Positions 462-20,387 of a DNA stretch of 53,115 nucleotides are shown here, piece by piece; within the stretch, counting starts at the first letter, position 1; each line of letters opens with the position of its first letter. The position numbers were made by a program, and so were the translations under genes. Origin of the DNA: Beijerinckiaceae bacterium (GTDB lineage Bacteria; Pseudomonadota; Alphaproteobacteria; Rhizobiales; Beijerinckiaceae); contig CANJJI010000011.1 of the NCBI GenBank assembly GCA_947474545.1, positions 1-53,115 on the forward strand, read 5' to 3'. A model generated the notes under the pieces. That model searched no databases, was not told where the DNA came from, and saw only the letters and a program-made list of their open reading frames with translations.

Positions 462-902
462 TCACTTCTGGCCGGGAGGACCCTGAAATTCCCATGTGTG
501 ACCCTGCGGATCGAGCAGGAACAATTGAGGGTCGCCGGTGAGATTGCCGATCTCCTGGAACGGAACACCCAGCGCCTTCATCCGCGCCCGAAACGCGCCG
601 ACATCGCGAATTTTCCACGCGGTATGCCGGCCAGCTGGCGTAATCTTGGCATCAGAGCCGGGACGCAATGTGTTTTCGTTGACGATCAAGTGGAAGCTTA
701 CGGTGCGATCGGCATCGACCATCCATGCGCCCGAACCCATCGCATCAAGGGCAGGCGGACGTGGAATCTGGGTAAGGCCAAGAACATCGCGGTAGAATGC
801 GATCAGATCAGGCAGCTTGTCCTTGTCGCAGGGAATGCCCTCATGGCTGACGCCATCGAAACGCAAGGCAGGCACATCGGTTGCAGTGGCGGTGGCTGAC
901 AT
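462..902 (-). CDS. VOC-superfamily (glyoxalase/extradiol dioxygenase-like) enzyme
   Basis: A 146-aa protein with one vicinal-oxygen-chelate repeat pair. The N-terminal part carries the first beta-alpha-beta unit with DLIAFYRDVLGL (residues about 31-42). The C-terminal strand ends in DPQGHTWEFQ, which supplies the usual metal-ligand Glu. The start is set by a GGGAGA ribosome-binding site 5 nt upstream of the ATG. It lies 47 nt downstream of the flavin monooxygenase gene on the same strand, so the two probably form one transcript. The family includes glyoxalases, fosfomycin-resistance proteins and ring-cleavage dioxygenases; next to an aromatic hydroxylase a ring-cleavage or isomerase role is plausible, but the sequence alone does not fix the reaction. 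Confidence 0.8.
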   Translation of the reverse strand: MSATATATDVPALRFDGVSHEGIPCDKDKLPDLIAFYRDVLGLTQIPRPPALDAMGSGAWMVDADRTVSFHLIVNENTLRPGSDAKITPAGRHTAWKIRDVGAFRARMKALGVPFQEIGNLTGDPQLFLLDPQGHTWEFQGPPGQK

Positions 903-949
903 TTTTCTCTCCCAATTCGAAGCCTATTTTGAACTTATCTGAGAAAACG

Positions 950-2197
950 TCAATGCGCCTGGAAGGCTGCGATCTCCGCGTCGCGCAACAGCATTTGTGC
1001 GCCATAATCCCGGATGATTTGCGCAGGATCGCATTTGAGGCCGGGGGTATTTGGATCATCGGGTGGACTGTATTTGGCTTCCAGAAACGCCCCGAGATAG
1101 CGCGAGTGCGCACATAACTTTTGACCAAATGCCACGCGCTGGGCCTCATAACGCGCCAGTGCCTGGGGAACATCGCCTGAGCTTGCGGTCAATTCATCCG
1201 CCAGACATTGTGCATCAAGAGCCGCTTTTGATACGCCTGCCGCCGTGTGCGGGCGCGCGATGAATGCAGCATCGCCCATCAGCGCAACCCTGCCGAAAAC
1301 CATCTTGGGCGTCTGCAGATCGCTGACCGCCTGCAACAAAATCTGCGGCGTGCGGTTGATCACCTCGGCAATGCATGCGGGCAGTAGCTTGTAAGCGTCG
1401 CTTTTAACTTCTGCCGGGAATTCTGGCCGGATCAATGGCGGCGGAATGGACACGCGGTGGTTCTTTCCGCTCGCGTCGGTGAACATGTCCGCGAGCCTGT
1501 CGCGTGAAACGGGCCTGTACCAGATAAAATAAATGCGGCGGTGGCCGGGACGCATATCGTCGCCGGTGCCCGGTACAGTCATGCACAAAAGCATTTCGCC
1601 ATCGGGATAACAAAAGACGATGCGATGGCCGATAGCTTCCAGCACGGCGGCCGGCATATCGGCTTCCTCGACGATGCCGCGCCAGGCGACATAACTGGCG
1701 TAGACAGGATCAACGTCTGGCAAAAACTGGCGGCGGACTGTCGAATAGACGCCATCAGCGCCGACCAGCAGGTCACCGGTTTCGCTGGCGCCATCGGCAA
1801 AATGAGCTGTCACGCTGGCGTCGGTTTGTTCGATACGCACGAGATTCATGCCCTGCCGGTAATGCTCTTCCGGCGCGATTTCCCTTAAAGGCTGATAGAC
1901 ACGCGGCCATGTGCTCCCGACGGTCGGCCGCACATGCTCGAACAGGATTTTCCCGTCCTTCGCCATCCACGCATAACTTGGGTGAGCAGACCCCGATGAC
2001 ATATCGAAGCGCGCGCCGACTTTGTGCATGATGTCGACCAGATCCTGAGAGATGCCCAGTCCCGCCCCCCGCCCTGCCAGATCGCCCCGCGCCCGCTCGA
2101 AAATGACAGCCTCCCAGCCTGCCTGGCGCAGCAAGGCTGACGCCAGCAATCCGCCAACGGAACCACCGATAATGAGGGCGCGGGGGCGAGTGGGCAT
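950..2197 (-). CDS. FAD-dependent aromatic monooxygenase, 2,6-dihydroxypyridine 3-monooxygenase-like
   Basis: The 415-aa product is a class A flavoprotein hydroxylase, which would use NAD(P)H and O2 to hydroxylate a ring. The FAD dinucleotide fold is at residues 8-17 (IIGGSVGGL, with Ser at the third motif position as in dihydroxypyridine hydroxylases). The second FAD motif LVGADGVYSTVR is at 144-155, and the GDAAF motif that binds the ribityl chain is near residue 300. The central YVAWRGIVEE block and the FCYPDGEML and PPPLIRPEF blocks resemble the 2,6-dihydroxypyridine 3-monooxygenase family (Pfam FAD_binding_3 plus its substrate domain). The ATG at 2197 is chosen because GGAAGG precedes it by 7 nt; an 18-residue upstream extension has no such site. 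It leads a likely two-gene operon with the VOC gene. The exact substrate is inferred only. Confidence 0.85.
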   Translation of the reverse strand: MPTRPRALIIGGSVGGLLASALLRQAGWEAVIFERARGDLAGRGAGLGISQDLVDIMHKVGARFDMSSGSAHPSYAWMAKDGKILFEHVRPTVGSTWPRVYQPLREIAPEEHYRQGMNLVRIEQTDASVTAHFADGASETGDLLVGADGVYSTVRRQFLPDVDPVYASYVAWRGIVEEADMPAAVLEAIGHRIVFCYPDGEMLLCMTVPGTGDDMRPGHRRIYFIWYRPVSRDRLADMFTDASGKNHRVSIPPPLIRPEFPAEVKSDAYKLLPACIAEVINRTPQILLQAVSDLQTPKMVFGRVALMGDAAFIARPHTAAGVSKAALDAQCLADELTASSGDVPQALARYEAQRVAFGQKLCAHSRYLGAFLEAKYSPPDDPNTPGLKCDPAQIIRDYGAQMLLRDAEIAAFQAH

Positions 2198-2388
2198 AAG
2201 TGTTTCCTTCCGGGCTGCGCCACAAATCGGCGCATGTTTTATTGGCTCCAATTTGCGGCGGTTTCGGACTCAATTGCAAGGGGCTGGCACATGGGGGCAG
2301 TCATCAGGATTGGGAACATTGTGTAGGCGCTCGAGCTGCAAAGCTGCGGCATCAATCTTTCTGCAATCGTATAATCCGACAAGCGTCC

Positions 2389-3651
2389 TTATCGCAGTAT
2401 GGAGCTTGCCATCATCGCGAGTGAGGTTAATAGACCTGCAAACGGCATCCAAAGGGGAACGGTCACGTGGGGCTCCTCGGATTCGATGCCTCGCAATCGG
2501 ACAGCAATAAGCGAAACATTCACGAGTGCAAAAACAGCCAGCGTCGCGATGGACGTACCTTCAGCCAGTTTCTCGAGTGGAAATGCGACCGCGAGCACTA
2601 TGACCAGAGCGATATTGACCCCGGTGGCAACAAGTGGCGTTGCTGTCCGGTGGTCGACCCTCCCGAATATCCCGGGTAAATCGCCCTGCCGGGCCATTCC
2701 ATACATAACCCGGGATGAAAGGGTCATTTGCGCCAGTATGGTGTTCAGGGTCGCGAAAATCGCGATCAAGCTGATCGTGGCGGGGCTTACGCCGGCCAGA
2801 GTGCGAAAAACAAGACTGAGCGGGGCAGGCGAGGCAGCCAGTTGCGCAAGGGGAACAGCAGCCACGCAAATCACAGCGATGGACACATAAAGCACGGTTG
2901 AAATAATCAAGGTCCACAGCATCGCACGCGGTAGATTGCGCTGCGGTTCCCGCGCTTCTTCGGCGATATTCGCCAGATCCTCGAACCCGATAAAAGCAAA
3001 AAATGCCAGCAGTCCACCAAAGGCGATCGCGGAGAACGAAGTCATGTCCATCGGCGGCAATTGCAGGATCACCGGGCTCACTGGCAGCCCCGCATACATG
3101 GCCGAACCGATGATGGCGAGCAGGCCGCTGACCTCTATCAGCGTAAAAAATGCAGCCAAGATAACCGATTCCAGAATACCCCAGGCCGATATTGCCCCGA
3201 GCACCATCACGATGACTACAACGAGAACACTGGCCGGTAGATTGACGAATTGCGTCATATATCCGGCTGATCCGATTGCAACCGCCGCCGAAGAGACAAT
3301 GCCAATCACAAGGGTCAAAAGCCCGGTAAAGACAGACAACGGCTTTGAGGAAAATGCGGCTCGCATGTAAGCGGCTTCGCCGGCGCTCACCGGGTAGCGC
3401 GTCGCCATTTCCGCATAGGAGGCGACTGTGAGCGCCATAACCAGCGCCGCGAGCAAAAAAGACCACGGCGCAAACCGCCCGGCGTGACCTGCCACAGCGC
3501 CGATCAGCACGTAAATTCCCGCGCCAATTGTTATCCCGGTGCCGTACATCACGAGCAGAGGCAGGCCTAGCCGGCGCTGCAGCTTTCCCTGTACTTTTAT
3601 GTCGCCGGTTGGTTGCATGGGCCTTGATCCAATCTTTGGGACATCAATCAT
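2389..3651 (-). CDS. APC-superfamily amino acid/amine permease
   Basis: A membrane protein of about 420 aa with around 12 hydrophobic segments. It carries the APC-family signature near the N-terminus (YGTGITIGAGIYVLIG, the glycine-rich TM1 that forms the substrate site) and the conserved FFAFIGFEDLANIAEEAREPQRNLPRA block after TM6. This family imports amino acids, amines or related small organic cations with protons or by exchange. The start is uncertain: ATG at 3651, ATG at 3618 (AAGG just upstream) and TTG at 3690 are all in frame. The gene is 191 nt upstream of the flavin monooxygenase on the same strand and could supply its substrate. The substrate cannot be read from the sequence. Confidence 0.85.
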   Translation of the reverse strand: MIDVPKIGSRPMQPTGDIKVQGKLQRRLGLPLLVMYGTGITIGAGIYVLIGAVAGHAGRFAPWSFLLAALVMALTVASYAEMATRYPVSAGEAAYMRAAFSSKPLSVFTGLLTLVIGIVSSAAVAIGSAGYMTQFVNLPASVLVVVIVMVLGAISAWGILESVILAAFFTLIEVSGLLAIIGSAMYAGLPVSPVILQLPPMDMTSFSAIAFGGLLAFFAFIGFEDLANIAEEAREPQRNLPRAMLWTLIISTVLYVSIAVICVAAVPLAQLAASPAPLSLVFRTLAGVSPATISLIAIFATLNTILAQMTLSSRVMYGMARQGDLPGIFGRVDHRTATPLVATGVNIALVIVLAVAFPLEKLAEGTSIATLAVFALVNVSLIAVRLRGIESEEPHVTVPLWMPFAGLLTSLAMMASSILR

Positions 3652-3877
3652 GAAAAGGCGGAAAAACAATTGACCGGGAACAAGCTGCAAAAAGGAGGGC
3701 GGCCCCCTTGGGCGATTGTGAGGCGGGATAGGCTCCCTGATGCCATTGAGACTTTCTCCCCGGCGCGAAGTACGTTACCTTACAGACGGCCAGAGGACCA
3801 AACCTTTGCGCTCGCACGAATAGGCCTTCGCGAGAAAGGCGGTTTGGGGAACAGAACTTGACCAGCGGGACCAGATC

Positions 3878-5635
3878 ATGACTGACAACACGGCAGGCGC
3901 GATGACGCGAAACCAGCCAATTGCTATGCCTGCGCCCCTGCAGAGCCTGGCCCAGCGTCTTTTTTCAGGCCGTAATGTGCTGGTCGTCTCGCTGGTGGCG
4001 ATCCTGAGCTTTCTGGCTGTCTATCCGCTGGCGATGCTGCTGTACGGCAGCCTTCACTCCACGCCGCCAGGAATGGCGGGCGAATTCAACCTGAATGGCT
4101 ACAAATCAATCCTGAATTGGTCCAATACCCTCGTACTGCTCAACACCGTGGCGATTTCCCTCGGCAAGACGATCCCTTCCCTGACCCTCGCGGTCCTCCT
4201 CGCCTGGATCATTGCCCGGACCGATACGCCCTGGCGGGACAAGCTGGAAGTTCTGATCACACTGCCATTTTTCATTCCTCCCATTCTCACGGCGATGGCC
4301 TGGGGCATGCTTGGTAACCCGCAAGTGGGACTTCTCAATCAGGTCTGGAAATGGGCGACCGGTGCAACCGTTTCCCCAATCAACGTATATTCGTATGGCG
4401 GCATCATCTGGCACATGATGCAATATTCGACGCCGTTCCTGTTCCTCTTCATTGTAGATATTTTCCGGGCAATGGACCCGGCGCTGGAAGAATCAAGCCG
4501 CATGTGTGGCGCATCGCGCTGGCGCACATTCCGCCTCATCACCTTGATGCTGATGCTGCCTGCGTTGACGAATTCTTTTATCCTGAGCTTGATCCGCGGC
4601 ATCGAATCCTTTGAATCGCCGCTGTTCTTCGGCACACCCGCAAAGATTGAAGTCATTACGACCGAAATCTACAATTCGATCAATCATCGGGCGACACCGG
4701 ATTATCAATATGCCACCGCGCTGAGCTTCGCCATCATGGTGATGATGTTCCTGCTCGTAATATGGCAATGGTGGCTGCTGAAGGGCCGCACCTTCACGAC
4801 AGTCACCGGCAAGGGCTACGCGCCCAACATCATGAAACTGGGCAGATGGAAATGGGTGACCTTTTCATTCTGCATTCTGTTTTTCGTCATCACAGTCGTT
4901 CTGCCTGTCGGCCAGTTGCTGATTGGCTCGTTCTTCAAGTTCTTTGGCTTCTATTCGTATGACATGCTGACGACCGAACATTACGTCGCTGTGTTCAACA
5001 ACGCTGAAGTCTGGCGCGCCATCGGCAATACAATGTTGCTGGGCCTGCTCGGCGCAACTGCGGTGATGATTCTGGGCTCAATCGTCGCCTATGTCTCGGT
5101 GCGGACGAAATGGCGCGGCCGCCGGCTGATTGATGGCCTGGCGTGGTTGCCGTGGATGATGCCGGGCATGGTGCTGGGCATCGGCTTTCTCTGGGCCTTC
5201 GCCATGTTGCCGGGACCAATCCCGATCTACGGAACCATCTGGGCGCTGATGCTTGCCTATATTGCGCTGGGCACGCCGATCTCCGTGCGCGTGATGAACA
5301 GCGCCTATGCCCAGCTCTCCTACGATCTTGAGGAATGTTCGCGCGTACATGGCGCGACCTTCATGCAGACCATGTGGCGCATTCTCATCGCGCTGGCCTG
5401 GCCCTCGTTTGCCGTGGGCTGGGTGCTCGCGTTCTTCGGCATCATGCGGGAATTGTCGGCATCCATCCTGCTCTATTCGGTGGGATCGGAAGTTCTGTCC
5501 GTTGTGCTGCTCCGACTATGGGCGAACGGCCTTGCCGAGCAGGTCAGCGTCATCGGGCTCATGATGATGCTTTTGGTGATCCTGTTCCGCTGGGTGCAGT
5601 TGAAACTCATCAAGAGCCGCATCTCCACGCTGTAA
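3878..5635 (+). CDS. ABC transporter permease, Fe3+/FbpB-type fused double domain
   Basis: At 585 aa this permease holds two complete BPD_transp_1 domains in one chain, with about 12 hydrophobic segments. Each half has the cytoplasmic EAA loop that docks on the ATPase: EESSRMCGASRWRTF in the first half and EECSRVHGATFMQTM in the second. Fused double permeases of this kind are typical of the ferric-iron/2-aminoethylphosphonate/spermidine-like importers. A GGGA ribosome-binding site precedes the ATG. The ATPase gene starts 35 nt downstream, then HyuA and HyuB follow in the same direction. No periplasmic binding-protein gene is near, which is unusual for such an importer. Given its neighbours it may import the substrate of the hydantoinase-like enzyme rather than iron. 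Confidence 0.9.
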   Translation: MTDNTAGAMTRNQPIAMPAPLQSLAQRLFSGRNVLVVSLVAILSFLAVYPLAMLLYGSLHSTPPGMAGEFNLNGYKSILNWSNTLVLLNTVAISLGKTIPSLTLAVLLAWIIARTDTPWRDKLEVLITLPFFIPPILTAMAWGMLGNPQVGLLNQVWKWATGATVSPINVYSYGGIIWHMMQYSTPFLFLFIVDIFRAMDPALEESSRMCGASRWRTFRLITLMLMLPALTNSFILSLIRGIESFESPLFFGTPAKIEVITTEIYNSINHRATPDYQYATALSFAIMVMMFLLVIWQWWLLKGRTFTTVTGKGYAPNIMKLGRWKWVTFSFCILFFVITVVLPVGQLLIGSFFKFFGFYSYDMLTTEHYVAVFNNAEVWRAIGNTMLLGLLGATAVMILGSIVAYVSVRTKWRGRRLIDGLAWLPWMMPGMVLGIGFLWAFAMLPGPIPIYGTIWALMLAYIALGTPISVRVMNSAYAQLSYDLEECSRVHGATFMQTMWRILIALAWPSFAVGWVLAFFGIMRELSASILLYSVGSEVLSVVLLRLWANGLAEQVSVIGLMMMLLVILFRWVQLKLIKSRISTL

Positions 5636-5670
5636 CAATAATTCTGAAATCCCCGGAAGGAAGGGCGTTA

Positions 5671-6768
5671 ATGTCCGCGATTGTACTTGAAAACATATCC
5701 AAATTCTTTGGCGCGGCGGCCGCTGTCGACAATGTCAATCTGCAGGTGGAGACCGGCGAATTTGTCACGCTGCTTGGACCCTCCGGCTGCGGCAAGACCA
5801 CGACTTTGCGCATGGTGGCGGGCCTCGAACAGAATTCCACAGGCCGTATCAGCATCGGTGGTGAAGTTGTAAGCGACGCCGCGCAGGGCTTTTTTATCCC
5901 GCCAGAGCGTCGACATCTGGGCATGGTGTTCCAGTCCTACGCCATCTGGCCGCATATGACTGTGTTTGACAATGTGGCCTATCCCCTGCGCATCCGGCGC
6001 AAGTCAGCGCAGGAAATCAAGGAACGCGTCGCCACGGCGCTGAAACTTGTCGAGATGGAGCGCTTTGCCGATCGTCCGGCGCCTGCGCTCTCTGGTGGTC
6101 AGCAGCAGCGTGTCGCCATTGCGCGCGCGCTTGTGTTCGAACCGCGCGTGCTGTTGCTCGACGAGCCCCTGTCCAATCTCGACGCACGCCTGCGCACACA
6201 GACCGGCGATGAGTTCCGCCAGTTGCAGAAACGCCTGGGCATCACCAGTCTTTATGTGACCCATGATCAGGGTGAAGCGATGGCGCTTTCTGATCGGGTT
6301 GTCGTCATGAGCATGGGCAAGATCCTGCAGGTTGGCGCGCCCGAGGATATTTATCAGCGCCCACATTCGCGCGATGTAGCGGCCTTTTTCGGTTCGCCGA
6401 ATTTCATTGAAGCAGAGGTAAAAGCCTGCCGCAGCGATACGGGCGGAACATTTGTGCTTGAACTTGATGGCGGCTGGAAAGGCCCGTGTCATTCCTCCCA
6501 TGAGATCAAGCCCGGGAACAAAGCTGCGGTGATGGTACGTCCCGAAAACATGCGCCTGGTCTCAGGCGGGCAGGGGCCTTCGGCAACTGGCATGGCGTGG
6601 AAGGGCATTGTGAAAGAATCCATCTATCGCGGCGCACATCGTTCTGTGATGCTCGATACGCCCGCCGGCAATCTCAACATTGACCTTACGGCGCTTGAAA
6701 ATCCTGCTGTTGGCGCAAATGTCGATGTATTCGCCGCCGAGAATTCAGCTTGGGCCGTGCCGGTCTGA
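5671..6768 (+). CDS. ABC transporter ATP-binding protein (FbpC/PotA type)
   Basis: A 365-aa ATPase that would power the permease upstream. Walker A is GPSGCGKT at residues 36-43, the Q-loop is at Q88, the signature LSGGQQQ at 140-146, Walker B LLLDEP at 161-166 and the switch His at 198. The last roughly 110 residues form a TOBE domain as in carbohydrate/iron/polyamine importers of this class. The ATG at 5671 has a strong GGAAGGAAGGG ribosome-binding region; a longer reading frame that starts inside the permease gene is out-of-frame overlap, not coding. HyuA begins 30 nt after its stop, which argues for a single operon linking transport and hydrolysis. Confidence 0.93.
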   Translation: MSAIVLENISKFFGAAAAVDNVNLQVETGEFVTLLGPSGCGKTTTLRMVAGLEQNSTGRISIGGEVVSDAAQGFFIPPERRHLGMVFQSYAIWPHMTVFDNVAYPLRIRRKSAQEIKERVATALKLVEMERFADRPAPALSGGQQQRVAIARALVFEPRVLLLDEPLSNLDARLRTQTGDEFRQLQKRLGITSLYVTHDQGEAMALSDRVVVMSMGKILQVGAPEDIYQRPHSRDVAAFFGSPNFIEAEVKACRSDTGGTFVLELDGGWKGPCHSSHEIKPGNKAAVMVRPENMRLVSGGQGPSATGMAWKGIVKESIYRGAHRSVMLDTPAGNLNIDLTALENPAVGANVDVFAAENSAWAVPV

Positions 6769-6798
6769 TTTTCGCCTGATCAAATTCCGGAGACTGCT

Positions 6799-8874
6799 TT
6801 GACGCGCTATCGCATAGGCATCGACGTTGGCGGCACGCATACGGATATGGTGCTTGTCGATACGCTGAATAATTCCAGCCGCGTTCATAAATTGCCGAGC
6901 ACGCCGGCAAATCCCGCTATCGCTGTACTCGAAGGTGTACAACACTTCATCGCATCAGGGATTGCGCCCGCAGATATCGCCTTTTTCAGCCATGGCACGA
7001 CTGTCACCACGAATACGCTGCTGGAGATGAAAGGCGCACGGATTGGCGTGCTGCTCAATCGCGGCATGCGTGGCATATTGGAAGTGCAAACGCAGGCTCG
7101 CGAGGGCTGGTCGACCTTCGATCATTTCTTTGTCAAACCCGAACCATTGGCTCGCCCTCGTTATGTGCGCGAAATCGCGGGGCGCATGGATTTTTCGGGA
7201 CAGGAAATAGAGAGGCTTGACGAAGCCGCTGTACGCGAAGCCGCGCAGGCGCTCACGGCGGATGGCGTTACATCTTTTGCAATCTGCTTTCTGTTCTCGT
7301 TCATGAACAAGAGCCATGAGGAGCGCGCGGCAGCAATCATTCGCGAAATTGCGCCGCAGTCCTTTGTGTCCTGTTCCAGCCACGTATTGCCGCGCATCCG
7401 CGAATGGCCGCGCTATTCCACCACGATGTTGAATGCTTATCTTGCCCCAGTTCTGTCGCGTTATTGCGGCGACATGGGCCGGGGCCTTGACGAACTTGGC
7501 GTCACGACCCGTCAGCGCTTCTTGATGCAATCCAATGGCGGCGTCATGCCGCTGTCCGCAGATGCGGAAGTGCATACCGTGCGCACGCTACTGTCCGGCC
7601 CGGCAGCGGGCGTGCGTGGCGCAAGTTATCTCCTCGCCCGCGCACAAGGCTGGCGCAATCTAGTAACGATGGATATCGGCGGCACATCTTGCGACATAGC
7701 CTTTATCGAAGGTGGTGAGCCTGTCGAACAATCGGAAGGCACGCTCGACGGACGCATTGTCGGCGTTCCCGCTTTCGATATTGCGACCGTTGCAGCGGGC
7801 GGGGGATCGATCGCCTGGACCAGCGAATCCGGTTTGCTTGAAGTTGGACCCAAGAGCGCGGGTGCAGATCCAGGTCCCGTATGCTACGGCAAGGGCGGCA
7901 GGCAGCCCACTGTAACCGACGCCAATGTCTTGCGTGGCGCTTTAAATCCCGATTATTTCCTGGGCGGCAAGATAAGTCTTGATCTGGATGCAGCGAAATC
8001 CGCTCTCAACCTTGAGATCGCCCGGCCCATGGGCATCGACGTTGATGCAGCCGCTTGTGGCATCGTGCGCATTATCAATGCACGTATCGTCGACGCCATC
8101 CGGGTTGAGGCAGCGAAAAAAGGTATCGATCTGGCTGGCCATACGCTCGTGCCGTTTGGCGGTGCGGGCCCTGTTCATGCTGCGCAGGTGGCTGAACAAT
8201 TGGGCATGCGCCGCGTGCTCGTGCCGCGAAATCCCGGCGCATTTTCGGCGCTCGGACTTTTGTGCAGCGATGTCCGCCACGATTACATGCGCTCGGAATT
8301 GGTTGACATCGCCACGCTCGATGCGGCCCATGCTGAAACATGTTTCGCATCGCTTGAGTCTGAAGCGCGAAAGGAAGTTGCAGTTGAAGGTCTCGATCCC
8401 GATTCGCTCGTTTACGAGCGCGAAATGGATATGCGTTATGCGGGGCAGGGATATGAATTGCAGATATCGCTGGCAGGTATAACGCGGCCGCTCGATCCTC
8501 AAGCCCTGAATGCGATTGCCGAACGGTTTCACACCGAACACACCAACATCCATGGCCATGCTGCCCGCGATACATCCGTTGAAATTGTCAGCTATCGCCT
8601 CCGCGCCATCGTCCCCATGCCGAAATTCGCGCCCGCAAAAAGAGCCGCAATTTCGGCTGAGACAAAACCTGCACACTTCAATCGCCGGACGGTTCTGCTC
8701 GACGCTGGCCGCAACATCGATGCGCGCGTCTGGCGGCGGGACGATCTGACCGCAGGTTTTATCGCAGATGGCCCTGCGATCATCGAGCAGCTTGATGCAA
8801 CGACCATCGTGCCCGATGGCTGGCGCTTCACCAGTGATGATGACGACAACCTCATACTGGAAAGGATTGCGTGA
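6799..8874 (+). CDS. Hydantoinase/oxoprolinase family protein, subunit A (HyuA-like)
   Basis: At 691 aa this matches the ATP-binding subunit of the hydantoinase/5-oxoprolinase/acetophenone-carboxylase family. The actin-like ATPase fold opens with GIDVGGTHTD (residues 7-16) and has a second block MDIGGTSCDIAFIEGG in the middle; the C-terminal region is the usual beta-rich hydantoinase tail. The start is TTG with CCGGAG 6 nt upstream; no ATG in this frame would keep the N-terminal motif. Its stop overlaps the HyuB start by one base, so the two are translationally coupled. Known members use ATP to open lactam, hydantoin or oxoproline rings or to carboxylate ketones. Which reaction applies here is not visible. 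Confidence 0.9.
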   Translation: MTRYRIGIDVGGTHTDMVLVDTLNNSSRVHKLPSTPANPAIAVLEGVQHFIASGIAPADIAFFSHGTTVTTNTLLEMKGARIGVLLNRGMRGILEVQTQAREGWSTFDHFFVKPEPLARPRYVREIAGRMDFSGQEIERLDEAAVREAAQALTADGVTSFAICFLFSFMNKSHEERAAAIIREIAPQSFVSCSSHVLPRIREWPRYSTTMLNAYLAPVLSRYCGDMGRGLDELGVTTRQRFLMQSNGGVMPLSADAEVHTVRTLLSGPAAGVRGASYLLARAQGWRNLVTMDIGGTSCDIAFIEGGEPVEQSEGTLDGRIVGVPAFDIATVAAGGGSIAWTSESGLLEVGPKSAGADPGPVCYGKGGRQPTVTDANVLRGALNPDYFLGGKISLDLDAAKSALNLEIARPMGIDVDAAACGIVRIINARIVDAIRVEAAKKGIDLAGHTLVPFGGAGPVHAAQVAEQLGMRRVLVPRNPGAFSALGLLCSDVRHDYMRSELVDIATLDAAHAETCFASLESEARKEVAVEGLDPDSLVYEREMDMRYAGQGYELQISLAGITRPLDPQALNAIAERFHTEHTNIHGHAARDTSVEIVSYRLRAIVPMPKFAPAKRAAISAETKPAHFNRRTVLLDAGRNIDARVWRRDDLTAGFIADGPAIIEQLDATTIVPDGWRFTSDDDDNLILERIA

Positions 8875-11792: not shown

Positions 11793-11836
11793 GATGGCCG
11801 CTCCTTGCTATTCTGATTTGACCAGGCGCGCTTTCA

Positions 11837-12208
11837 TCAGTCGCGCAGCGACACTACGATATCGTCGCCCTCAACCCGCATTTTTACGGCGCGCAGGCGG
11901 ACAGCATTATTTGTCGGGTGCCTGCCGGTGCGAATATCGAACTCGAACCCGTGCCATGGACAAACAACATTCATATCGGTCTTGGAGAATTCGCGCCCGC
12001 GGCTTGTCTTGTCTTCGTTCACAGCTTCTGTCGCGCAGGGCAGGATTTTGCCCTGGCACGCCGGGCCATCGAGATGCGGGCAGCGGTTTTCCCAGGCGTA
12101 GAATTGCCCGCCCAGTTTGAACACGCCGAATTCCGTACCACCGACATCGAAAACCTTGCGGCCAGGATCGGGAAAGGACGAAGCCTTGGCGACAATGACA
12201 TCAGGCAT
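11837..12208 (-). CDS. Rieske [2Fe-2S] ferredoxin-like protein
   Basis: A small soluble 123-aa electron carrier. The two Rieske cluster boxes are CPH (C43, H45) and CPWH (C83, H86). The boxes are 37 residues apart, about 20 more than in standard Rieske ferredoxins; the insertion (about residues 53-80) is polar and includes an extra Cys at 58. The ATG is preceded by AAGGAGG. It lies between the two paralogous amidohydrolase genes, with gaps of 31 and 44 nt, in the same operon. It could pass electrons from the PDR-type reductase at 16612-17568 to an oxygenase, but no terminal Rieske oxygenase is encoded in this window. A regulatory or structural Rieske domain is an alternative. Confidence 0.88.
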   Translation of the reverse strand: MPDVIVAKASSFPDPGRKVFDVGGTEFGVFKLGGQFYAWENRCPHLDGPACQGKILPCATEAVNEDKTSRGREFSKTDMNVVCPWHGFEFDIRTGRHPTNNAVRLRAVKMRVEGDDIVVSLRD

Positions 12209-12239
12209 GGTATTTCCTCCTTAGTTTATCTGATTTTTG

Positions 12240-13517: not shown

Positions 13518-13537
13518 GCTGACCTCCCGTAATGTAG

Positions 13538-15163
13538 TTAGCCGCGTATTTTCGGAAACTGGATAAAGCCCCATGGGCTCGGCACTTCACCGATAGGCAC
13601 TTCGATGATGACAGGCTCCTTGCCTGCCACCGCCTTTTCCAGCACTGGCCGCAATTCTTCGGGCGACCGCACACGAATGCCTTTAATGCCGAAGGAATCG
13701 GCGAGCTTGAGGAAATCGGGATTCAGGAGATCGCTGGCGATGACCCTGTTGCCATGTTCTTCCATCTGCATACGCCTGACATTGCCGAACGCCGCATCGT
13801 TGAACACGATGAATACAGGCGAGAGATTGTGGCGCACAGCGGTGGAGAATTCCTGGATCTGATACATGAAGCCGCCATCGCCGGAAATCACGATGACAGG
13901 CGTATCGCCAACCGCATCCTTCGCGCCCAGCGCCGTGGAGACGCCCCAGCCCAAAGTGCCCTGATAGCCGCTGTTCAGGAACGTGCGCGGTTTATACACG
14001 GGATAGGCAATGCGCGAGACATAGCCAACCTGTGTAAGATCATCGATAAGAATGCCGTTTTCCGGCAACACATCGCGAATGACGCGCAGATAGGAAAGCT
14101 GCGGCTCAAGCCCCTTTGTCCAGTTATTGAACCAGGCCTTGTGATCGAGACTAGCCTGTATGCGCTTCTTCGCCGGGAAGTCATCGGGCTTAAGAATGCC
14201 CAGCAGCGCCTGTAGAACAGCTTTGGAATCCGCGAGAATAGACACATCGGGTTGTTTGAAGCGCGAGAGTTCCTCGGGATCGAGATCAATGCGCAGCAGT
14301 TTCAGCTTGTCGTCGAAGCCCCAGGATTGCAGAGGCAGACTGACGCGCGAACCGATGCCGATGACCAGATCTGTGGTCTTCCACAATTCATGCGCCGCTG
14401 CCTGCGTGTGCGAAAGCGGATGCCGCGAATCCAGTATGCCGCGCCCTGTGCGATGGCCGATCACGGGAATGCCGGTGAGTTCAGCAAGCAGGCGGATTTC
14501 TTCCGCGGCATGAATTGCGCCGGTACCCGCGAAAATCATCGGCCGTTCGGCTTTTTTGATCAGATCGGCGGCGCGTTCCACATCGGCGGGCAGCGCCACG
14601 GGCGGCTCCTCTGCGCCCAGTGGCGCAACAGGGGTGACTTCGCCCTTGCGCGCCAGCATGTCGGCAGGCAGATCAAGACCGACGGGGCGCGAACGGCCCG
14701 ATGCCACCGCGCGAAACGCCTCGGCGATCTTCTGCGGCGCTTCGGCAGGCGTATTGATCCGTTCAGTCCATTTGGTCAGCTGTTTCTGGATCGCCAGCTG
14801 ATCGGGAATTTCATGCAGCAGGCCCCAGTTCTTGCCGATGCCCGCTGTTGGCAATTGCCCGGCGAGCGCGATGACAGGCGCATTCAACGCATAGGCCGTA
14901 CACAGCGCCGCGCAGGAATTCAGGAAGCCGGGACCCGGAACAACCGAATAGGCAGCGGGTTTTCCAGTTGCGATGGCAGCGCCCAGCGCCATATAGCCGG
15001 CGGCCTGCTCGTGCCTTGTATGAACGGGGCGTAGCGCGCCATGTGTGTCGAATATGGCGTTGAACAAATGATCGCTCTGCACGCCGGGCAGGCAATAGAG
15101 CGTCTTCACGCCATGCGCCAACAAACCGCCAACTACAGCATCCCCGCCCGACATCACCGGCAT
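13538..15163 (-). CDS. Thiamine-diphosphate-dependent enzyme (acetolactate synthase/benzoylformate decarboxylase superfamily)
   Basis: A 541-aa cytoplasmic ThDP enzyme with the three-domain order PYR, central, PP. The catalytic activating Glu is E52 in HEQAAGYMA, and the ThDP/Mg motif GDG at 428-430 is followed by N455 in VFNDAAFGN, the standard GDG-x(24)-N spacing. Such enzymes decarboxylate or ligate 2-oxo acids (acetolactate synthase, benzoylformate, oxalyl-CoA, sulfoacetaldehyde and others). It is unlikely to be the biosynthetic acetolactate synthase because no small subunit follows and it heads a catabolic operon with two amidohydrolases and a Rieske protein. AGGAGG precedes the ATG. It is divergent from the SDR gene across 112 nt. 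Confidence 0.9.
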   Translation of the reverse strand: MPVMSGGDAVVGGLLAHGVKTLYCLPGVQSDHLFNAIFDTHGALRPVHTRHEQAAGYMALGAAIATGKPAAYSVVPGPGFLNSCAALCTAYALNAPVIALAGQLPTAGIGKNWGLLHEIPDQLAIQKQLTKWTERINTPAEAPQKIAEAFRAVASGRSRPVGLDLPADMLARKGEVTPVAPLGAEEPPVALPADVERAADLIKKAERPMIFAGTGAIHAAEEIRLLAELTGIPVIGHRTGRGILDSRHPLSHTQAAAHELWKTTDLVIGIGSRVSLPLQSWGFDDKLKLLRIDLDPEELSRFKQPDVSILADSKAVLQALLGILKPDDFPAKKRIQASLDHKAWFNNWTKGLEPQLSYLRVIRDVLPENGILIDDLTQVGYVSRIAYPVYKPRTFLNSGYQGTLGWGVSTALGAKDAVGDTPVIVISGDGGFMYQIQEFSTAVRHNLSPVFIVFNDAAFGNVRRMQMEEHGNRVIASDLLNPDFLKLADSFGIKGIRVRSPEELRPVLEKAVAGKEPVIIEVPIGEVPSPWGFIQFPKIRG

Positions 15164-15275
15164 CTGATTTCCTCCTGATTATTTTGCGCATATTCGGGCA
15201 GGAAAGACATGATTGTCGAGTCATTTCCCGCGCAGCGTGTTTGTGCTCTATTGGCGCAAACTTGGGAGGAAGCAC

Positions 15276-16082
15276 ATGTTCGAGAATTTGTTCCGCATGG
15301 ATGGCAAGGTGGCCGTGGTCACCGGCGCTGGTTACGGCCTGGGGCGCTCGTTTGCACTGGGGCTGGCGGCCCATGGCGCGCATGTGATCTGTCAGGATCG
15401 CAACAAGGAGCGCGTCGAGGAGACGGTGGGGCTCATCCGGCAATCGCGGTTGAGCGGCGAATCCATCGTCGGCGATGTCGCCGACGAGAAATCATGCGAG
15501 CTCAACTGGGCGGAGATTGCGGCCAGTCACAAGAAGATCGACATCCTCATCAACAATGCCGGCATTACGACTAATCCTGTGCGCACTCATGAATTCAGCA
15601 TCGAGGATTGGGATCGTGTCATGGCGGTGAATCTGCGCGGCGTGTTTCTGACGACGCGGCAGGCATTGCGGCTCATGCTGCCGGGGCCAGCGTCGATCAT
15701 CAACATCGCTTCGATTGCCGGGTTGATGGGCTATTATCCGGGCCGCCCTTCGCTGGCGATCAATTATTCGACAGCCAAGGCCGGTGTGCTGGGCTTCACC
15801 AAACAGGTCGCGGCCGAATATGCCAAGGAGCATATCCGCGTCAACGCGATTGCGCCGGGTTGGCATGGCGGCACGGATCTGGGCGCAGCCAGACGCGCGG
15901 CGCTGAATGAGGAGGAGATCGGCTTCTTCGAGAAAGCGATCAAGGACCGAGTCCCCATGGGGCACCGCGCTGTCGCTGATGATCTCGTTGGACTGGTGGT
16001 GTATCTGGCCAGCGATGCCTCTCACTACATGACCGGCCAGGTCATCGCCCATGATGGCGGCTGGAGCGAGATGCTGGTGTGA
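15276..16082 (+). CDS. Short-chain dehydrogenase/reductase (SDR)
   Basis: A 268-aa classical SDR that would oxidise or reduce a hydroxyl/carbonyl group with NAD(P). The cofactor motif TGAGYGLG is at residues 16-23, NNAG at 93-96, and the catalytic Ser146, Tyr164 and Lys168 are in place. The C-terminal end (YMTGQVIAHDGGWSEM) is the usual dimer-interface tail. The ATG at 15276 has GGGAGGA 6 nt upstream; longer frames start without a ribosome-binding site. It is divergent from the ThDP gene, so the 112-nt gap probably controls both. An alcohol or dihydrodiol intermediate of the pathway is a reasonable substrate. Confidence 0.92.
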   Translation: MFENLFRMDGKVAVVTGAGYGLGRSFALGLAAHGAHVICQDRNKERVEETVGLIRQSRLSGESIVGDVADEKSCELNWAEIAASHKKIDILINNAGITTNPVRTHEFSIEDWDRVMAVNLRGVFLTTRQALRLMLPGPASIINIASIAGLMGYYPGRPSLAINYSTAKAGVLGFTKQVAAEYAKEHIRVNAIAPGWHGGTDLGAARRAALNEEEIGFFEKAIKDRVPMGHRAVADDLVGLVVYLASDASHYMTGQVIAHDGGWSEMLV

Positions 16083-16221: not shown

Positions 16222-16227
16222 TATAAT
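16222..16227 (+). promoter_or_regulatory. Putative -10 element of EthD-domain gene
   Basis: A perfect TATAAT lies 50 nt upstream of the EthD start. The best -35 at 17-nt spacing (CTGAAC) is weak, so an activator may be needed. Confidence 0.4.
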
Positions 16228-16276
16228 CGGGCGGTGCAGGTTGAAATCTGGAGCAGCGCGATAGTGGAGAGACTCA

Positions 16277-16591
16277 ATGGCGCGAATGGTCGTGATCTAT
16301 AAAGCGCCCGCTGACGTCGATGCTTTTGAGCGGCATTATTTCGAGAAGCATGTGCCCCTCGCCAAGCGTTTACCGGGCATCAGAAAATACGAGGTGAGCC
16401 GTGGCGCGATCATGTCGCCTGCTGGCCCGTCGGACGCGTGGATGGTTGCAACGCTTCATTTCGACAGCCTGGCCGCTATTCGCGATGCCTTCGCGAGTGA
16501 GGTGGGGAAGGAATGCGCTGCGGACCGCCGCGAGTTTGCGCCTGATCCGGCGCAATTTCAAATGCTCATGTTTGACGACAAAGAAGTGTAG
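16277..16591 (+). CDS. EthD-domain protein (dimeric alpha/beta barrel)
   Basis: A 104-aa protein of the EthD family: the N-terminal strand MVVIYKAPADVDAFERHYFEKHVPLAKRLPG carries the typical HYFEKHVPLAK helix of this fold, followed by LHFDSLAAIRDAF. EthD-domain proteins often accompany degradation operons (ethyl tert-butyl ether, aromatics) and either act on small cyclic intermediates or have an unknown accessory role. GTGGAGAG provides the ribosome-binding site. It reads toward the PDR-type reductase, which ends 20 nt beyond its stop. Its exact function is not known. Confidence 0.85.
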   Translation: MARMVVIYKAPADVDAFERHYFEKHVPLAKRLPGIRKYEVSRGAIMSPAGPSDAWMVATLHFDSLAAIRDAFASEVGKECAADRREFAPDPAQFQMLMFDDKEV

Positions 16592-16611
16592 CGCGAAGCT
16601 CCTCTCGCCCC

Positions 16612-17568
16612 TCACAAATCCAGCACCAGCCTTGCGCTCTTGCTGCCTGAGCAGCAGATCATCATGGTCTTGCTCGCCTTGCGCTCGCTGTCGGTGAGGA
16701 TGTTGTCGCGGTGGTCGGGTGTGCCTGAGACAACCACGGTTTCGCAGGCGCCGCAGACGCCTTCTTCGCAGGAATAGGTCATGTCGACACCCGCGTCGCG
16801 CAGCACCTGCAGAATGGTTTTGCCTTGAGGAACTTCAAATTCGCGGCCGGATTTTTTCAGCTGCACGATATAGCCGCCTTCAGTCGCAGCGGCTTCCTTG
16901 GCGGTGAAATATTCAATGTGCATCTGGCCGGGGGCGAGATCCTTCGTCGCCTCTTCATAGGCGGCAAGCATCGGACCAGGGCCGCAGCAATAAAAATGCG
17001 AGCCTGCGGGCGCGCTGGCGACGATGGCCTTCATGTCGAGAAACTTGCCATTGGCTTCGGAATCAAAATGCAGGGTTACTTCCGGGCGCTTGGACAATTC
17101 GTCGAGAAACGCCGCCTCTCCGCGCTCGCGGCATGAATAATACATCGTGAACGGCAAGCCCTTGGCGATCAGCCGCTCGGCCATACAGCGGATGGGCGTG
17201 ATGCCGATGCCGCCAGCAATCAGCACCGTATGGGGTGCCGTCAAATCGAGCGGGAAATTGTTGCGGGGTCCGCCGATCTTGACGATCTGGCCGACCTTCA
17301 AATGATCATGAATATAGATCGAGCCGCCACGGCTGGTGCGATCGCGCTTGATGCCGACGATATAGCTCTCCCGCGGCCCTTCCGTCGTTGTGAGCGAATA
17401 CTGCCGCATCATGCCGTTGGGCAGATGGATATCGATATGCGCGCCCGGCTCGACAGCTGGCAACAGGCCGCCTTCCGGGCGGCGGAATTCGTAGAGATGC
17501 GTCTCATGGGCAGCATAGGTAATGCTGGTGAGCCGCAGGTTCATAGTTGTATTATTGAGGTCGTTCAC
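16612..17568 (-). CDS. PDR/VanB-family oxidoreductase (FMN, NAD(P), plant-type [2Fe-2S])
   Basis: A 318-aa reductase laid out like phthalate dioxygenase reductase and vanillate demethylase reductase. The FMN-binding motif RQYSLT is at 55-60, the nucleotide-binding AGGIGITPI at 118-126, the CGPGPM block at 195-200 and a C-terminal plant-type ferredoxin domain with C267, C272, C275 and C305 or C306. It transfers electrons from NAD(P)H to an oxygenase. The start is GTG, one base after the stop of the upstream hydrolase, with AGG inside that gene as ribosome-binding site; an ATG 24 nt further in is an alternative. It is the last gene of a four-gene operon. No oxygenase alpha subunit lies nearby; its partner could be the Rieske protein at 11837-12208 or be encoded elsewhere. 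Confidence 0.9.
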   Translation of the reverse strand: MNDLNNTTMNLRLTSITYAAHETHLYEFRRPEGGLLPAVEPGAHIDIHLPNGMMRQYSLTTTEGPRESYIVGIKRDRTSRGGSIYIHDHLKVGQIVKIGGPRNNFPLDLTAPHTVLIAGGIGITPIRCMAERLIAKGLPFTMYYSCRERGEAAFLDELSKRPEVTLHFDSEANGKFLDMKAIVASAPAGSHFYCCGPGPMLAAYEEATKDLAPGQMHIEYFTAKEAAATEGGYIVQLKKSGREFEVPQGKTILQVLRDAGVDMTYSCEEGVCGACETVVVSGTPDHRDNILTDSERKASKTMMICCSGSKSARLVLDL

Positions 17569-17569
17569 G

Positions 17570-18409
17570 TCATTCTACCTGTTCAAGAAACGCGAGGGTC
17601 CGCGTGTTGAATTCATCCGCGCATTCGATATTGCCCATGTGGCCAGCATTTTCAAATACATGCAGATCGCAGCGCGGGATTTGCGGCACAAAGCCATCGG
17701 TATAGCCGGGCGCACGCAGGGGATCGTGGCGGCCGGCAAATACCAGCACCGGCACTTTGATATTGGCGTAATTGATTTGGTCGCGTTCTGTGCGCGCTGA
17801 AGGTCCGCGGAAGGGCGCCTTGAAGCGCGCAACGGCAGTGGCTTCCCAAGCGCCGGGCAGGTTCGCCATTTCAACGCGCCGCGCGACATATTCTTCGCTG
17901 GCGCCCCACGCCTTGTTCACGAACATGGTGTCGACGATGCGGCGCATATGTTCCGGCGTACCGTCGTAGGAATTGAGCACCTTGCGGGCGTCGTTATCGG
18001 GAGATTCACCACCGCCGCAGCAACAAGTGACGCTTTTCAGCGGCCAGTCAGGCAAGTTGCGCGCCGCCACCATAAGGCAAAGCCCTCCCGACATGGATGA
18101 GCCCATGATGTGTACAGGCCCGGTTTCCATGATCTCGATGAAGCGCCGGATATGACGGATGCGCCGCCCGAACTGATCGTTGAAATCAAACACCTTGTCG
18201 GTAAGGCCAAAGCCCAGATGATCGGGCGCGAGCACGTGAAAATGCTGCGCCAGAAACGGCAAATTATATTCCCAGGTGAATTCGGCGCAGCCGCCAAATT
18301 CAGCCGAATGCAGAAGCACGATTGTAGGCTTCTTGCCGCGATGCTGGTCACCCGCTTCGTAGTAATGTGTGCGGGTTCCATCGACGGAAATATATTTGCC
18401 TTCCTTCAT
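17570..18409 (-). CDS. Alpha/beta hydrolase, MhpC-like meta-cleavage-product hydrolase type
   Basis: A 279-aa alpha/beta hydrolase similar in layout to the C-C hydrolases MhpC/BphD. The oxyanion segment is LLHSAEFGG (residues 32-40), the nucleophile elbow GSSMSGG (103-109, Ser105, with Ser where the last Gly usually is), the acid is in AGRHDPLRAP and the base is in ENAGHMGNIE. The ATG overlaps the stop of the upstream flavin monooxygenase (ATGA), so the two are translationally coupled, and the reductase starts one base after its stop. Hydrolysis of a ring-cleavage product or ester is the likely role; the substrate is not determined. Confidence 0.87.
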   Translation of the reverse strand: MKEGKYISVDGTRTHYYEAGDQHRGKKPTIVLLHSAEFGGCAEFTWEYNLPFLAQHFHVLAPDHLGFGLTDKVFDFNDQFGRRIRHIRRFIEIMETGPVHIMGSSMSGGLCLMVAARNLPDWPLKSVTCCCGGGESPDNDARKVLNSYDGTPEHMRRIVDTMFVNKAWGASEEYVARRVEMANLPGAWEATAVARFKAPFRGPSARTERDQINYANIKVPVLVFAGRHDPLRAPGYTDGFVPQIPRCDLHVFENAGHMGNIECADEFNTRTLAFLEQVE

Positions 18410-19575
18410 TCGGCGGCGGCTTTCGCATTCAAGGGCTGGCTGCGCGGCAGATCGCGGATCTGCGGATACACTTCCTTCGCGAACAGGGTCATGTTCTTGA
18501 CCGTGCTGGCATGGTCGAGGAAGCCGGCCTGCATCATCATCAGGAGATTGTCGAGACCGCCGGTCAGCTCATAGAGGCGCTTGATCTGCTTCACGACAAC
18601 GTCAGGTGTTCCATAGATCAGCACGCCCTGATCCTTGAGATATTCGATGGATTGCTTGCGCATCGCCTCGGTGCGGCCGGTGAACGTGCCCTTGAGGGCA
18701 GCCACGTTGAAATCAACCGGCACATAGCCCGGAGGATTGCGGTATTGCGGCTCAGTCTTGGCGTCGAGATACCAAGTTAGCGCCTTCGCTCCCTTTTCGG
18801 CTTCCTCCATATTATCGCCGACGAACACCAGCGGCATATAGGACGTGCCGCCGCCATCGGGCATGCCGGTGTCGACGTGCGCGCTGCGATAGGCGTCGAA
18901 CATCCACTTCACTTTTGTGTGCGGCTGCAGGAAGGTGGCGAAGGTGATGCCGCGGCTGGCGGCGCGCTTGATGTTGTCGAGATCGCTCGAACCGGTGATC
19001 CAGACTTGCGGATGGGGCGATTGCAGCGGGCGCGGCCAGATGTTGACAGCGCGGCGGTGCGTAAACTGGCCTTCGAAATTAAACGGGCCATCGGTCGTGG
19101 TCCAGGCCTTGATGCACAGATCAATGCCTTCCCAGAGACGTTCGACCGTCTGGGTGGGATTGCTGTTGGCCGCGAAGACTTCATACGGCACGCCGCGCAC
19201 AAATCCCGCATCCAGACGGCCGCGTGAAATGCAATCGATCATCGCCATTTCCTCGGCGATGCGGATGGGGTCGCCGCGATTGGCGATGGGGTTGCCGAGA
19301 ATGCAGATGCGTCCCTTGCTCGTCTGCCGCGCCAGAATCGCCGCAGTGAGAGGCACACAGGTGTCCATGCAGGTGGCGGTCTGATGATGCTCGTTGAGCA
19401 CCATGTTGAGGCCAAGATCGTCGGCAATCATATATTCGTCGAGATAGCGGTTATAAAGATCGGCTCCCACCTTCGGGTCGAAGTGCTTGCTGGCCAATGA
19501 CACGCGCATGGTGGACATATCCTCCATGGGCGGTAGATGCGGATAGGGCATTTCAGTAAAGAACCAGGCCTGCAT
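18406..19575 (-). CDS. LLM-class (luciferase-like) flavin-dependent monooxygenase
   Basis: A 389-aa TIM-barrel protein of the bacterial luciferase family, which uses reduced FMN and O2 to oxidise substrates. The conserved N-terminal blocks NMVLNEHHQT and AEEMAMIDCISRGRLDAGFVRG are present, as is the SSDLDNIKRAASRG block after the central barrel. GGGAG precedes the ATG. It follows the alpha/beta hydrolase at 19602-20387 by 26 nt and overlaps the next hydrolase gene by four bases. No separate flavin reductase is present in the cluster; the PDR-type protein or a distant gene may supply reduced flavin. The substrate is unknown. Confidence 0.9.
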   Translation of the reverse strand: MQAWFFTEMPYPHLPPMEDMSTMRVSLASKHFDPKVGADLYNRYLDEYMIADDLGLNMVLNEHHQTATCMDTCVPLTAAILARQTSKGRICILGNPIANRGDPIRIAEEMAMIDCISRGRLDAGFVRGVPYEVFAANSNPTQTVERLWEGIDLCIKAWTTTDGPFNFEGQFTHRRAVNIWPRPLQSPHPQVWITGSSDLDNIKRAASRGITFATFLQPHTKVKWMFDAYRSAHVDTGMPDGGGTSYMPLVFVGDNMEEAEKGAKALTWYLDAKTEPQYRNPPGYVPVDFNVAALKGTFTGRTEAMRKQSIEYLKDQGVLIYGTPDVVVKQIKRLYELTGGLDNLLMMMQAGFLDHASTVKNMTLFAKEVYPQIRDLPRSQPLNAKAAAE

Positions 19576-19601
19576 GTTGTTCTCCCTTGAGGTCGCGCGT
19601 G

Positions 19602-20387
19602 TCAGGCCAGAAAGCCGTTCAGTGTTTTCATGAATGCATCGGGTTGTTCGATATGCGGAAAATGTCCGGCAGATGCGATCGTTTCGAATTTGGCGCCGGG
19701 TATGAGCTCCGCATAGGCCTTGCCATAGGCGGGTTTCGTGAGGCCGTCATTGGCGCCCCAGATCACCAAAGTCGGCGTCTTGATGCGATGCAGGCGGCGC
19801 TTCAGTTTGGGATTATGCATATAAGGTTCCCAGCAGAACCGGGCGAAGGTTTCTATGTTTTGGGCCACAACAGTGAGCTGATCGTCGCTCATCGCGGCAA
19901 AGTCGCGCTTGCCTTTGGCGGCATCATGCCATTTCCAGGTGGCCACCTTGTCGGGATGCTGGGTCCACATATCCTCGATGTCGACATCGAACGGGCCGCC
20001 GATCTTTACGCCATAGGCGTCCACCAGCACCAGTTTTCCGATCAGGCTGTCGTCTTTGGTCGCCATTTCTGCAGCAATCCAGCCGCCGAGCGAGAAGCCG
20101 AGGATATCGGTGCTTTTGAGTTTCATCGCCTCGATCAGATCGAGATAGACATAGGCGATATCGTCCACATTGGTCATCCAGTCCGGGCGCGGTGAATGGC
20201 CGAACCCCGGCGGCGAGGGGATAATCACCTGACGTGTTTTGGCCAGCGCATCGACGAATGGCAGATGGTTTTCCAGCTGATCCTCGCTGGACAGCAATAG
20301 GAGAGGCGCGCCACTGCCGCGAATGTCGACTTCAAGCTGGACGCCGCCAACATTCATCAGGCGGGACTTCGTATCTGCGGACGTCAT
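19602..20387 (-). CDS. Alpha/beta hydrolase
   Basis: A 261-aa hydrolase with the nucleophile elbow GFSLGG (residues 97-102, Ser99), the acid in WGANDGLTKPA and the catalytic His in ASAGHFPHIEQPDAF. The fold and spacing match the general esterase/C-C hydrolase/haloperoxidase group. AGGGAG lies upstream of the ATG. It is the first gene of the four-gene minus-strand operon with the luciferase-like monooxygenase, the MhpC-like hydrolase and the reductase. Having two different alpha/beta hydrolases in one operon suggests successive ester or C-C bond cleavages. Confidence 0.87.
   Translation of the reverse strand: MTSADTKSRLMNVGGVQLEVDIRGSGAPLLLLSSEDQLENHLPFVDALAKTRQVIIPSPPGFGHSPRPDWMTNVDDIAYVYLDLIEAMKLKSTDILGFSLGGWIAAEMATKDDSLIGKLVLVDAYGVKIGGPFDVDIEDMWTQHPDKVATWKWHDAAKGKRDFAAMSDDQLTVVAQNIETFARFCWEPYMHNPKLKRRLHRIKTPTLVIWGANDGLTKPAYGKAYAELIPGAKFETIASAGHFPHIEQPDAFMKTLNGFLA

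Follow-up and report, generated by a model that had tools for sequence, protein, structure and literature searches.

Enzymes of the ARO group activate strong C-H bonds by means of an Fe/Fe or Mn/Fe site set in an amidohydrolase fold, and are annotated as amidohydrolases. The structure of PtmU3, which belongs to the platensimycin pathway, reportedly appeared in 2019, AibH1H2 followed in 2021, and the group is said to have been named in 2024; to our knowledge, the substrate is known for few of its members. Here we describe positions 462-20387 of a 53,115-nucleotide stretch of DNA from a Beijerinckiaceae bacterium (the window; G000:C11:1-53115, where G000 is the window's own genome, other G numbers are relatives and L numbers are fetched stretches or loci). 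Judged from its sequence, the core of this region (10515-15163), together with a convergent operon (3878-10514) and a gene for a short-chain dehydrogenase/reductase (SDR), is probably a gene cluster for catabolism with an ARO-type multicomponent monooxygenase at its centre.

The 2-aminoisobutyrate monooxygenase of Rhodococcus wratislaviensis, AibH1H2-AibG-AibF, resembles the system described here in comprising two PF04909 proteins and a Rieske ferredoxin and, in the part of the report available, also a 2Fe-2S flavin reductase, six metal ligands with an additional acid, and an amino-acid permease in the cluster (PMC7782822). According to the same part, the identity between AibH1 and AibH2 is 28%, and the former holds one Zn and has no such acid (PMC7782822), whereas the two proteins of the window, ARO1 and ARO2, share 76% identity and both have complete sites; ARO1 is approximately 20% identical to AibH2. 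The thiamine diphosphate (ThDP) enzyme, HyuAB and ABC importer present here are not among the aib genes tabulated there (PMC7782822). The diiron hydroxylase PtmU3 (PDB 6omp) has a fold and type of metal site like those here, but is described in that excerpt as a biosynthetic enzyme that takes CoA-linked substrates (PMC7782822), and shows 19% identity. For SfbO and three other ARO candidates (PDB 8SM6-8SM9), native substrates are likewise unidentified in the available portion of the report (PMC10811679). The literature found on this enzyme type, with subscription journals and preprints mostly uncovered, consisted of papers related to AibH1H2, SfbO and PtmU3, and held no characterised member of the clade at least 45% identical to ARO1. 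The ARO system here belongs to a recently described kind of enzyme, as a variant that is yet to be characterised. The sequence-only reading of this DNA had proposed a catabolic set of transport, oxygenation and ThDP genes without a described pathway, and indeed none was found in the literature searched. The genes of the core, the operon and the SDR are as follows.

3878-5635, plus strand: fused two-domain ABC permease (two BPD_transp_1 stretches)
5335-6768 (frame), plus strand: ABC ATPase, PotA/PhnT2-like (ABC_tran and TOBE_2; NCBIfam PotA and PhnT2 below cut-off), with its true start probably near 5671
6799-8874, plus strand: HyuA, ATP-dependent amidase/lactamase-type alpha subunit (Pfam; best NCBIfam model caprolactamase alpha)
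8871-10514, plus strand: HyuB, beta subunit (PF02538; NCBIfam caprolactamase beta)
10515-11792, minus strand: ARO2, second candidate dinuclear oxygenase subunit (Amidohydro_2)
11837-12208, minus strand: rFd, Rieske ferredoxin (PF00355; C-x-H ... C-x2-H motif)
12240-13574, minus strand: ARO1, candidate dinuclear oxygenase subunit (Amidohydro_2)
13538-15163, minus strand: ThDP enzyme of the PRK08266 subfamily, presumed 2-oxo-acid decarboxylase
15213-16082, plus strand: SDR, candidate 2-hydroxy-acid or alcohol dehydrogenase (Pfam adh_short)

ARO1 and ARO2 are best read as the oxygenase itself, each with a candidate Fe/Fe or Mn/Fe site predicted from its residues. Both have the PF04909 fold by Pfam and structure comparison, and the six metal ligands of the AibH2 type (D, H, H, E, D, H) are complete in ARO1 (D69, H71, H261, E314, D385 and H388) and, at the equivalent positions, in ARO2. 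Both window copies and 110 of 112 alignment rows have the acid two residues past the last histidine (D390), the other two rows ending before that position, and the seven-residue dinuclear set is invariant in the ARO alignment. In the part available of the report of Hibi et al., this acid is kept only in binuclear members (PMC7782822). The heterotetramer pattern of AibH1H2, in which one subunit has lost the acid and is mononuclear with Zn, is not seen in the window, where both copies are complete. The PDB matches of ARO2 are 8sm7, 8sm9, 8sm8, 8sm6 and 6m1w; a first structure model, from a four-row alignment, was poor (pLDDT 42.6) and was set aside, and families missing from the structural rows were not counted as evidence. 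ARO2 is 94% identical in amino acids to its orthologue in the sister genome G217, with a dN/dS of approximately 0.035. The ferredoxin gene lies between those of ARO2 and ARO1, at gaps of 44 and 31 bases, the ThDP frame overlaps ARO1 by 37 bases, HyuA and HyuB overlap by 4 bases, and HyuB and ARO2 converge with a gap of zero.

A profile search of contigs with the ARO alignment gave 586 confirmed loci, of which the best 80 were kept; among these, members of the clade come from Alphaproteobacteria, Burkholderiales, Actinomycetota, Acidobacteriota and others. Neighbours were counted (E<=1e-15, 60% coverage) in the 50 loci of 15 kb or longer and in 39 control stretches taken at round-number places in nine genomes, three of the window's genus, not matched by genome or composition. 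The labels came from a BLAST panel of named proteins, other gene families being uncounted. A Rieske ferredoxin of the panel types was found in 42 of the 50 ARO loci and in none of the 39 controls (Fisher p 1e-17), a ThDP enzyme in 15 against 0 (p 6e-5), a protein of approximately 100 residues at a strict threshold also in 15 against 0 (p 6e-5), the fused ABC permease in 8 against 0 (p 0.008) and the SDR in 9 against 1 (p 0.02), these p values being too good because the ARO loci are not independent. Differences were not significant for aminotransferase (5 against 0, p 0.051), HyuA (3 against 0), HyuB (4 against 0), hydroxy-acid oxidase (2 against 0), aldehyde dehydrogenase (5 against 1), LigB-like protein (1 against 0), second amidohydrolase (1 against 0), TctC (12 against 8), ribBA (2 against 0), luciferase-like monooxygenase (LLM; 7 against 2), the alpha/beta hydrolases ABH2 (3 against 1) and ABH1 (0 against 0), phthalate dioxygenase reductase (PDR)-type reductase (2 against 2), both kinds of FAD monooxygenase (FMO; 0 against 0) or APC permease (0 against 0).

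The protein of approximately 100 residues (for example L031:13290-13601, L032:9626-9961, L034:9567-9866 and L081:11280-11594) lies within 1.6 kb of the ARO gene in 44 of the 67 loci with 1.6 kb on both sides, and in none of the 39 controls; two of the 80 loci had no ARO row in the de-duplicated set and the rest fell short of the flank. No Pfam match was obtained for the one tested, that of L031. This protein, possibly an effector subunit, is absent from the window and from L052, L070 and L158-L162. A second pair of AROs encoded in tandem lies at L107:9902-12483, with identities of 52% and 50% to those of the window; ABH2- and LLM-like genes are also present at this locus.

The Rieske ferredoxin is presumed to be the electron donor of the AROs. 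No reductase gene lies within 10515-15163, unlike the AibH1H2-type operon with its dedicated reductase. A PDR-type reductase (16612-17568), whose best PDB match is phthalate dioxygenase reductase 2pia (E 6e-69), is encoded beyond the SDR and an EthD protein, both on the opposite strand; its relatives stand beside the SDR of the ARO block in G201 and beside ribBA and LLM in G223, G199 and G219. It is possible that this reductase serves rFd or that it partners the luciferase-like enzyme, and it could have changed service, because in G201 it stays with the SDR near the ARO block.

Several points weigh against an ARO-centred monooxygenase cluster: decarboxylases of PF04909 closely share the ARO fold, most ARO loci lack a ThDP enzyme, the region 462-20387 lacks the hydroxy-acid oxidases and aminotransferases found at other ARO loci, and the reductase of rFd is not pinned to one gene (PDR type or BenC type). 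An alternative is that ARO1 and ARO2 are ordinary non-redox enzymes (an aromatic decarboxylase, hydratase or hydrolase), with rFd serving some other oxygenase and a hydrolytic pathway left standing. This is improbable in view of the invariant dinuclear set, the confinement of the acid past the last histidine to binuclear members in the available text of PMC7782822, the frequency of ferredoxins at ARO loci, and domain scans, which found no Rieske oxygenase among the genes of 462-20387. Since ARO1 and ARO2 are read as an oxygenase, the hydrolysis and C-N cleavage that had been assigned to the two "amidohydrolases" fall away.

Of 51 genomes of the genus, 49 have homologues of ARO1 (E<=1e-60), at one to seven copies each; the list of close relatives (at least 65%) covers 14 genomes, the window's own included. 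The close clade comprises 11 tree rows (SH-aLRT 98), namely the two of the window, the two of G217, and those of G201, G223, G221, G226, G219, G233 and G228; the tree was built by a quick method with no bootstrap, some rows are long-branched, and the forks that bear on the origin of ARO2 relative to the split of G201 are unsupported either way. In G217 the genes keep the same order across two contigs at 83-98% identity, EthD excepted, the VOC gene lying beyond the fetched stretch. The sequence-only reading had pointed to synteny of ThDP enzyme, amidohydrolase, Rieske ferredoxin and second amidohydrolase; this holds for three of the four genes, with the order ThDP-ARO-rFd in G217, G201, G223 and G226, and ThDP-ARO up to the contig end in G228. 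The ABC permease and ATPase stand by the ARO in G201, G223, G221, G219 and G217 (permease 82-89% in the first four), and HyuAB in G201, G223 and G217. Both a HyuA orthologue (at least 68%) and a ThDP enzyme beside the ARO (at least 66%) are found in G000, G217, G201, G228, G223 and G226, whereas the best HyuA of G221 and G219 reaches only 45%, the ThDP enzyme of G221 (45%) is located elsewhere, and G219 has none at E<=1e-60. A linkage of HyuA to the ARO is not demonstrated in G228 and G226, because their HyuA lies on another contig. The SDR adjoins the ThDP gene in G217 (96%) and lies approximately 5 kb away in G201 (79%), beyond genes of RTX calcium-binding repeats (L053:18331-19998 and L054:2-2935).

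No binding protein for the importer is encoded in 462-20387. Three genes stand beside the importer in G201: one for a reductase of the BenC type, one whose product shares 44% identity with an annotated substrate-binding protein, and one for a protein of the SBP_bac type. The orthologue of the second lies on another contig of the window's genome (G000:C29:9585-10589, 93% identity), flanked by frames whose sizes and order correspond to those of the other two, and the importer partners are likely to be on contig C29. An AibH1H2-like pair is also next to the importer in G201, G221 and G219, and at least the AibH2-like member at the stretch end in G223; in G201 (L053:5208-7842), and likewise in L159 and L161, the pair has its own Rieske ferredoxin and takes the place where the window has the FMO and APC permease.

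The family, the complete ligands, the Rieske motif and the recurrence of ARO, rFd, ThDP enzyme, HyuAB and ABC importer together are read directly from sequence or model, and the redox partners, the order of steps and the substrate class are deduced from them. In the proposed pathway, a reductase (the PDR type, or a BenC type encoded elsewhere) would pass electrons from NAD(P)H to rFd, which would reduce the dinuclear site of ARO1, ARO2 or both; O2 would be activated there and a C-H bond of the substrate hydroxylated. The product might then be converted to a 2-oxo acid by the SDR, with HyuAB if an amide or lactam needs opening, and the ThDP enzyme would decarboxylate the 2-oxo acid to an aldehyde, probably toward aromatic-acid catabolism.

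The ThDP enzyme of the window scores 686 bits with NCBIfam PRK08266, above the cut-off of 571, the next best model, 5-guanidino-2-oxopentanoate decarboxylase, remaining under its own cut-off. The PRK08266 cut-off is also passed by the ARO-linked enzymes of Aminobacter, Neorhizobium and Microbacterium, while those of L101 and L104 belong to PRK08327 and that of L120 to PRK06154, and that of L082 has no model at the threshold used. Different ThDP families beside AROs suggest a chemical rather than merely inherited link, and enzymes that would yield 2-oxo acids accompany the ThDP enzyme in several lineages.

Aryl acids, as a class, are favoured as substrates, because aromatic genes accompany close ARO relatives. 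In L073 a gene for HpaB (4-hydroxyphenylacetate 3-hydroxylase) directly precedes that of an ARO with 73% identity to ARO1, and a LigB-like gene and another PF04909 gene are there too; an Aminobacter ARO locus has LigB, an aromatic-ring hydroxylase and an annotated 4-hydroxybenzoate 3-monooxygenase; G223 carries an FMO-MetE-like-LigB-amidohydrolase-aldolase set, and LigB-, amidohydrolase-, aldolase- and FMO-like genes also stand by the AROs of G221, G226 and G219. The aromatic set of G000 is on contig C13. A bolder and rather unlikely proposal is a route of the alpha-oxidation type that would be new to description, in which O2-dependent hydroxylation next to the carboxylate and further oxidation would lead to a 2-oxo acid and ThDP-dependent decarboxylation to an aldehyde one carbon shorter, with the protein of approximately 100 residues, which belongs to no known family, as effector subunit in many lineages and the second ARO copy in its place in the lineage of the window.

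HyuAB offers another possible route, in which the ARO makes an oxidised lactam such as isatin, HyuAB opens it to an aryl-2-oxo acid, and the ThDP enzyme decarboxylates the latter; chemistry of this kind belongs to indole-acetate breakdown. We consider it quite improbable as the route here. Caprolactamase CapAB is the best NCBIfam match of HyuAB, lactam hydrolysis by this family is published in the available part of PMC8453981, HyuA and the ARO-linked ThDP enzyme share their distribution in eight genomes, and in L075 and L124 relatives of HyuAB are encoded near an ARO and a ThDP enzyme. Against this, most other ThDP-ARO loci lack HyuAB, each of the eight genomes has 5 to 11 HyuA homologues (E<=1e-100), partial sources give hydantoin hydrolysis and ketone carboxylation as further activities among HyuAB relatives, and a literature search on isatin gave nothing on point. 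HyuA (527 bits, alpha) and HyuB (201 bits, beta) reach approximately half or less of the CapAB equivalog cut-off of 1000, and no claim of the same substrate is made because of these scores.

Of the remaining genes, listed below, the luciferase-like/hydrolase block and the VOC-FMO-APC block are read as neighbours and not as parts of the ARO system. With permease and ATPase counted apart there are 17 open frames in 462-20387, all intact and with the domains that had been reported for them.

462-902, minus strand: VOC protein
950-2251, minus strand: FMO (PF22607, FAD_binding-like; PRK07236)
2389-3690, minus strand: APC permease
16277-16591, plus strand: EthD protein (PF07110)
16612-17568, minus strand: PDR-type reductase
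17570-18409, minus strand: ABH1, alpha/beta hydrolase
18406-19575, minus strand: LLM, luciferase-like monooxygenase
19602-20387, minus strand: ABH2, alpha/beta hydrolase
20478-21641, minus strand, outside 462-20387: ribBA (PF00926 and PF00925)

By gene neighbourhood, ABH2-LLM-ABH1 is a module of a near-core ribBA locus. In each of the 8 genus genomes checked, an LLM orthologue lies approximately 1 kb from ribBA; ABH1 and ABH2 are at ribBA in all five fetched stretches (L171, L172, L173, L174 and L177), and the PDR reductase in L172, L173 and L174 though not in L171 or L177. These neighbours of ribBA across genomes therefore assign ABH2-LLM-ABH1 and the PDR reductase to that locus, which borders the ARO block in the window and G217 but in none of the other genomes inspected.

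The earlier view of five blocks forming one island for one compound gains from G217, which keeps the gene order apart from EthD, and from the PDR reductase, which by its position at the junction might act for the ARO and the luciferase-like enzyme alike and in G201 stands with the SDR near the ARO block. We nevertheless hold it to be very doubtful: the fetched LLM-ABH-ribBA stretches of G201, G223, G219, G199 and G231 hold no ARO, LLM homologues occur in 48 of 51 genus genomes as against the 14 listed for close ARO1 relatives, EthD was not found at the corresponding place in G217 (stretch L052), and FMO-APC is missing from the ARO stretches fetched for G201, G223, G221 and G219. Among fetched stretches, only that of G217 links FMO-APC to the importer, VOC lying outside that comparison. 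The FMO, once taken for a dihydroxypyridine-hydroxylase-like flavoprotein, gives no specific sign of a pyridine substrate in its model matches, which are PF22607 and, as the best, the unnamed subfamily PRK07236.

Breakdown of riboflavin or lumichrome, prompted by ThDP, Rieske and flavin genes beside ribBA, was considered and rejected; ribBA is single copy, each of the 8 genus genomes checked giving one match, and the lum cluster, in the part of its report available, relies on a P450, a xanthine-oxidase-like enzyme and a Rieske dioxygenase (PMC12746152), enzymes that are not among the genes of 462-20387. The 2-hydroxyisobutyrate route was likewise rejected; as described in the available portion of the source, its ThDP lyase acts on CoA esters and its oxygenase is of the MimABCD type, with no counterpart found here (PMC7176365). 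Elsewhere in the window, a frame at 29222-30865 on the minus strand carries a double zinc ribbon and a phosphoribosyltransferase domain confined to residues 314-541 of the longest frame, and its true start is likely later because the first part overlaps a methyltransferase frame (30065-31060, plus strand).

The clade around ARO1 is recognisable by its ligands and a nearby ferredoxin, with partner genes that narrow the chemistry, which leaves a limited set of substrates and proteins for testing, among them the small companion protein and the ARO pair with two complete sites. Most surprising are the presence of AROs in 49 of 51 genus genomes, an ARO pair with both sites complete, and a companion of approximately 100 residues in many relatives. 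The ARO family may be expanded in the genus of the window, which carries an unusual load of uncommon oxygenases, with up to 15 LLM homologues per genome in 48 of 51 genomes, an LLM load not compared with other genera.

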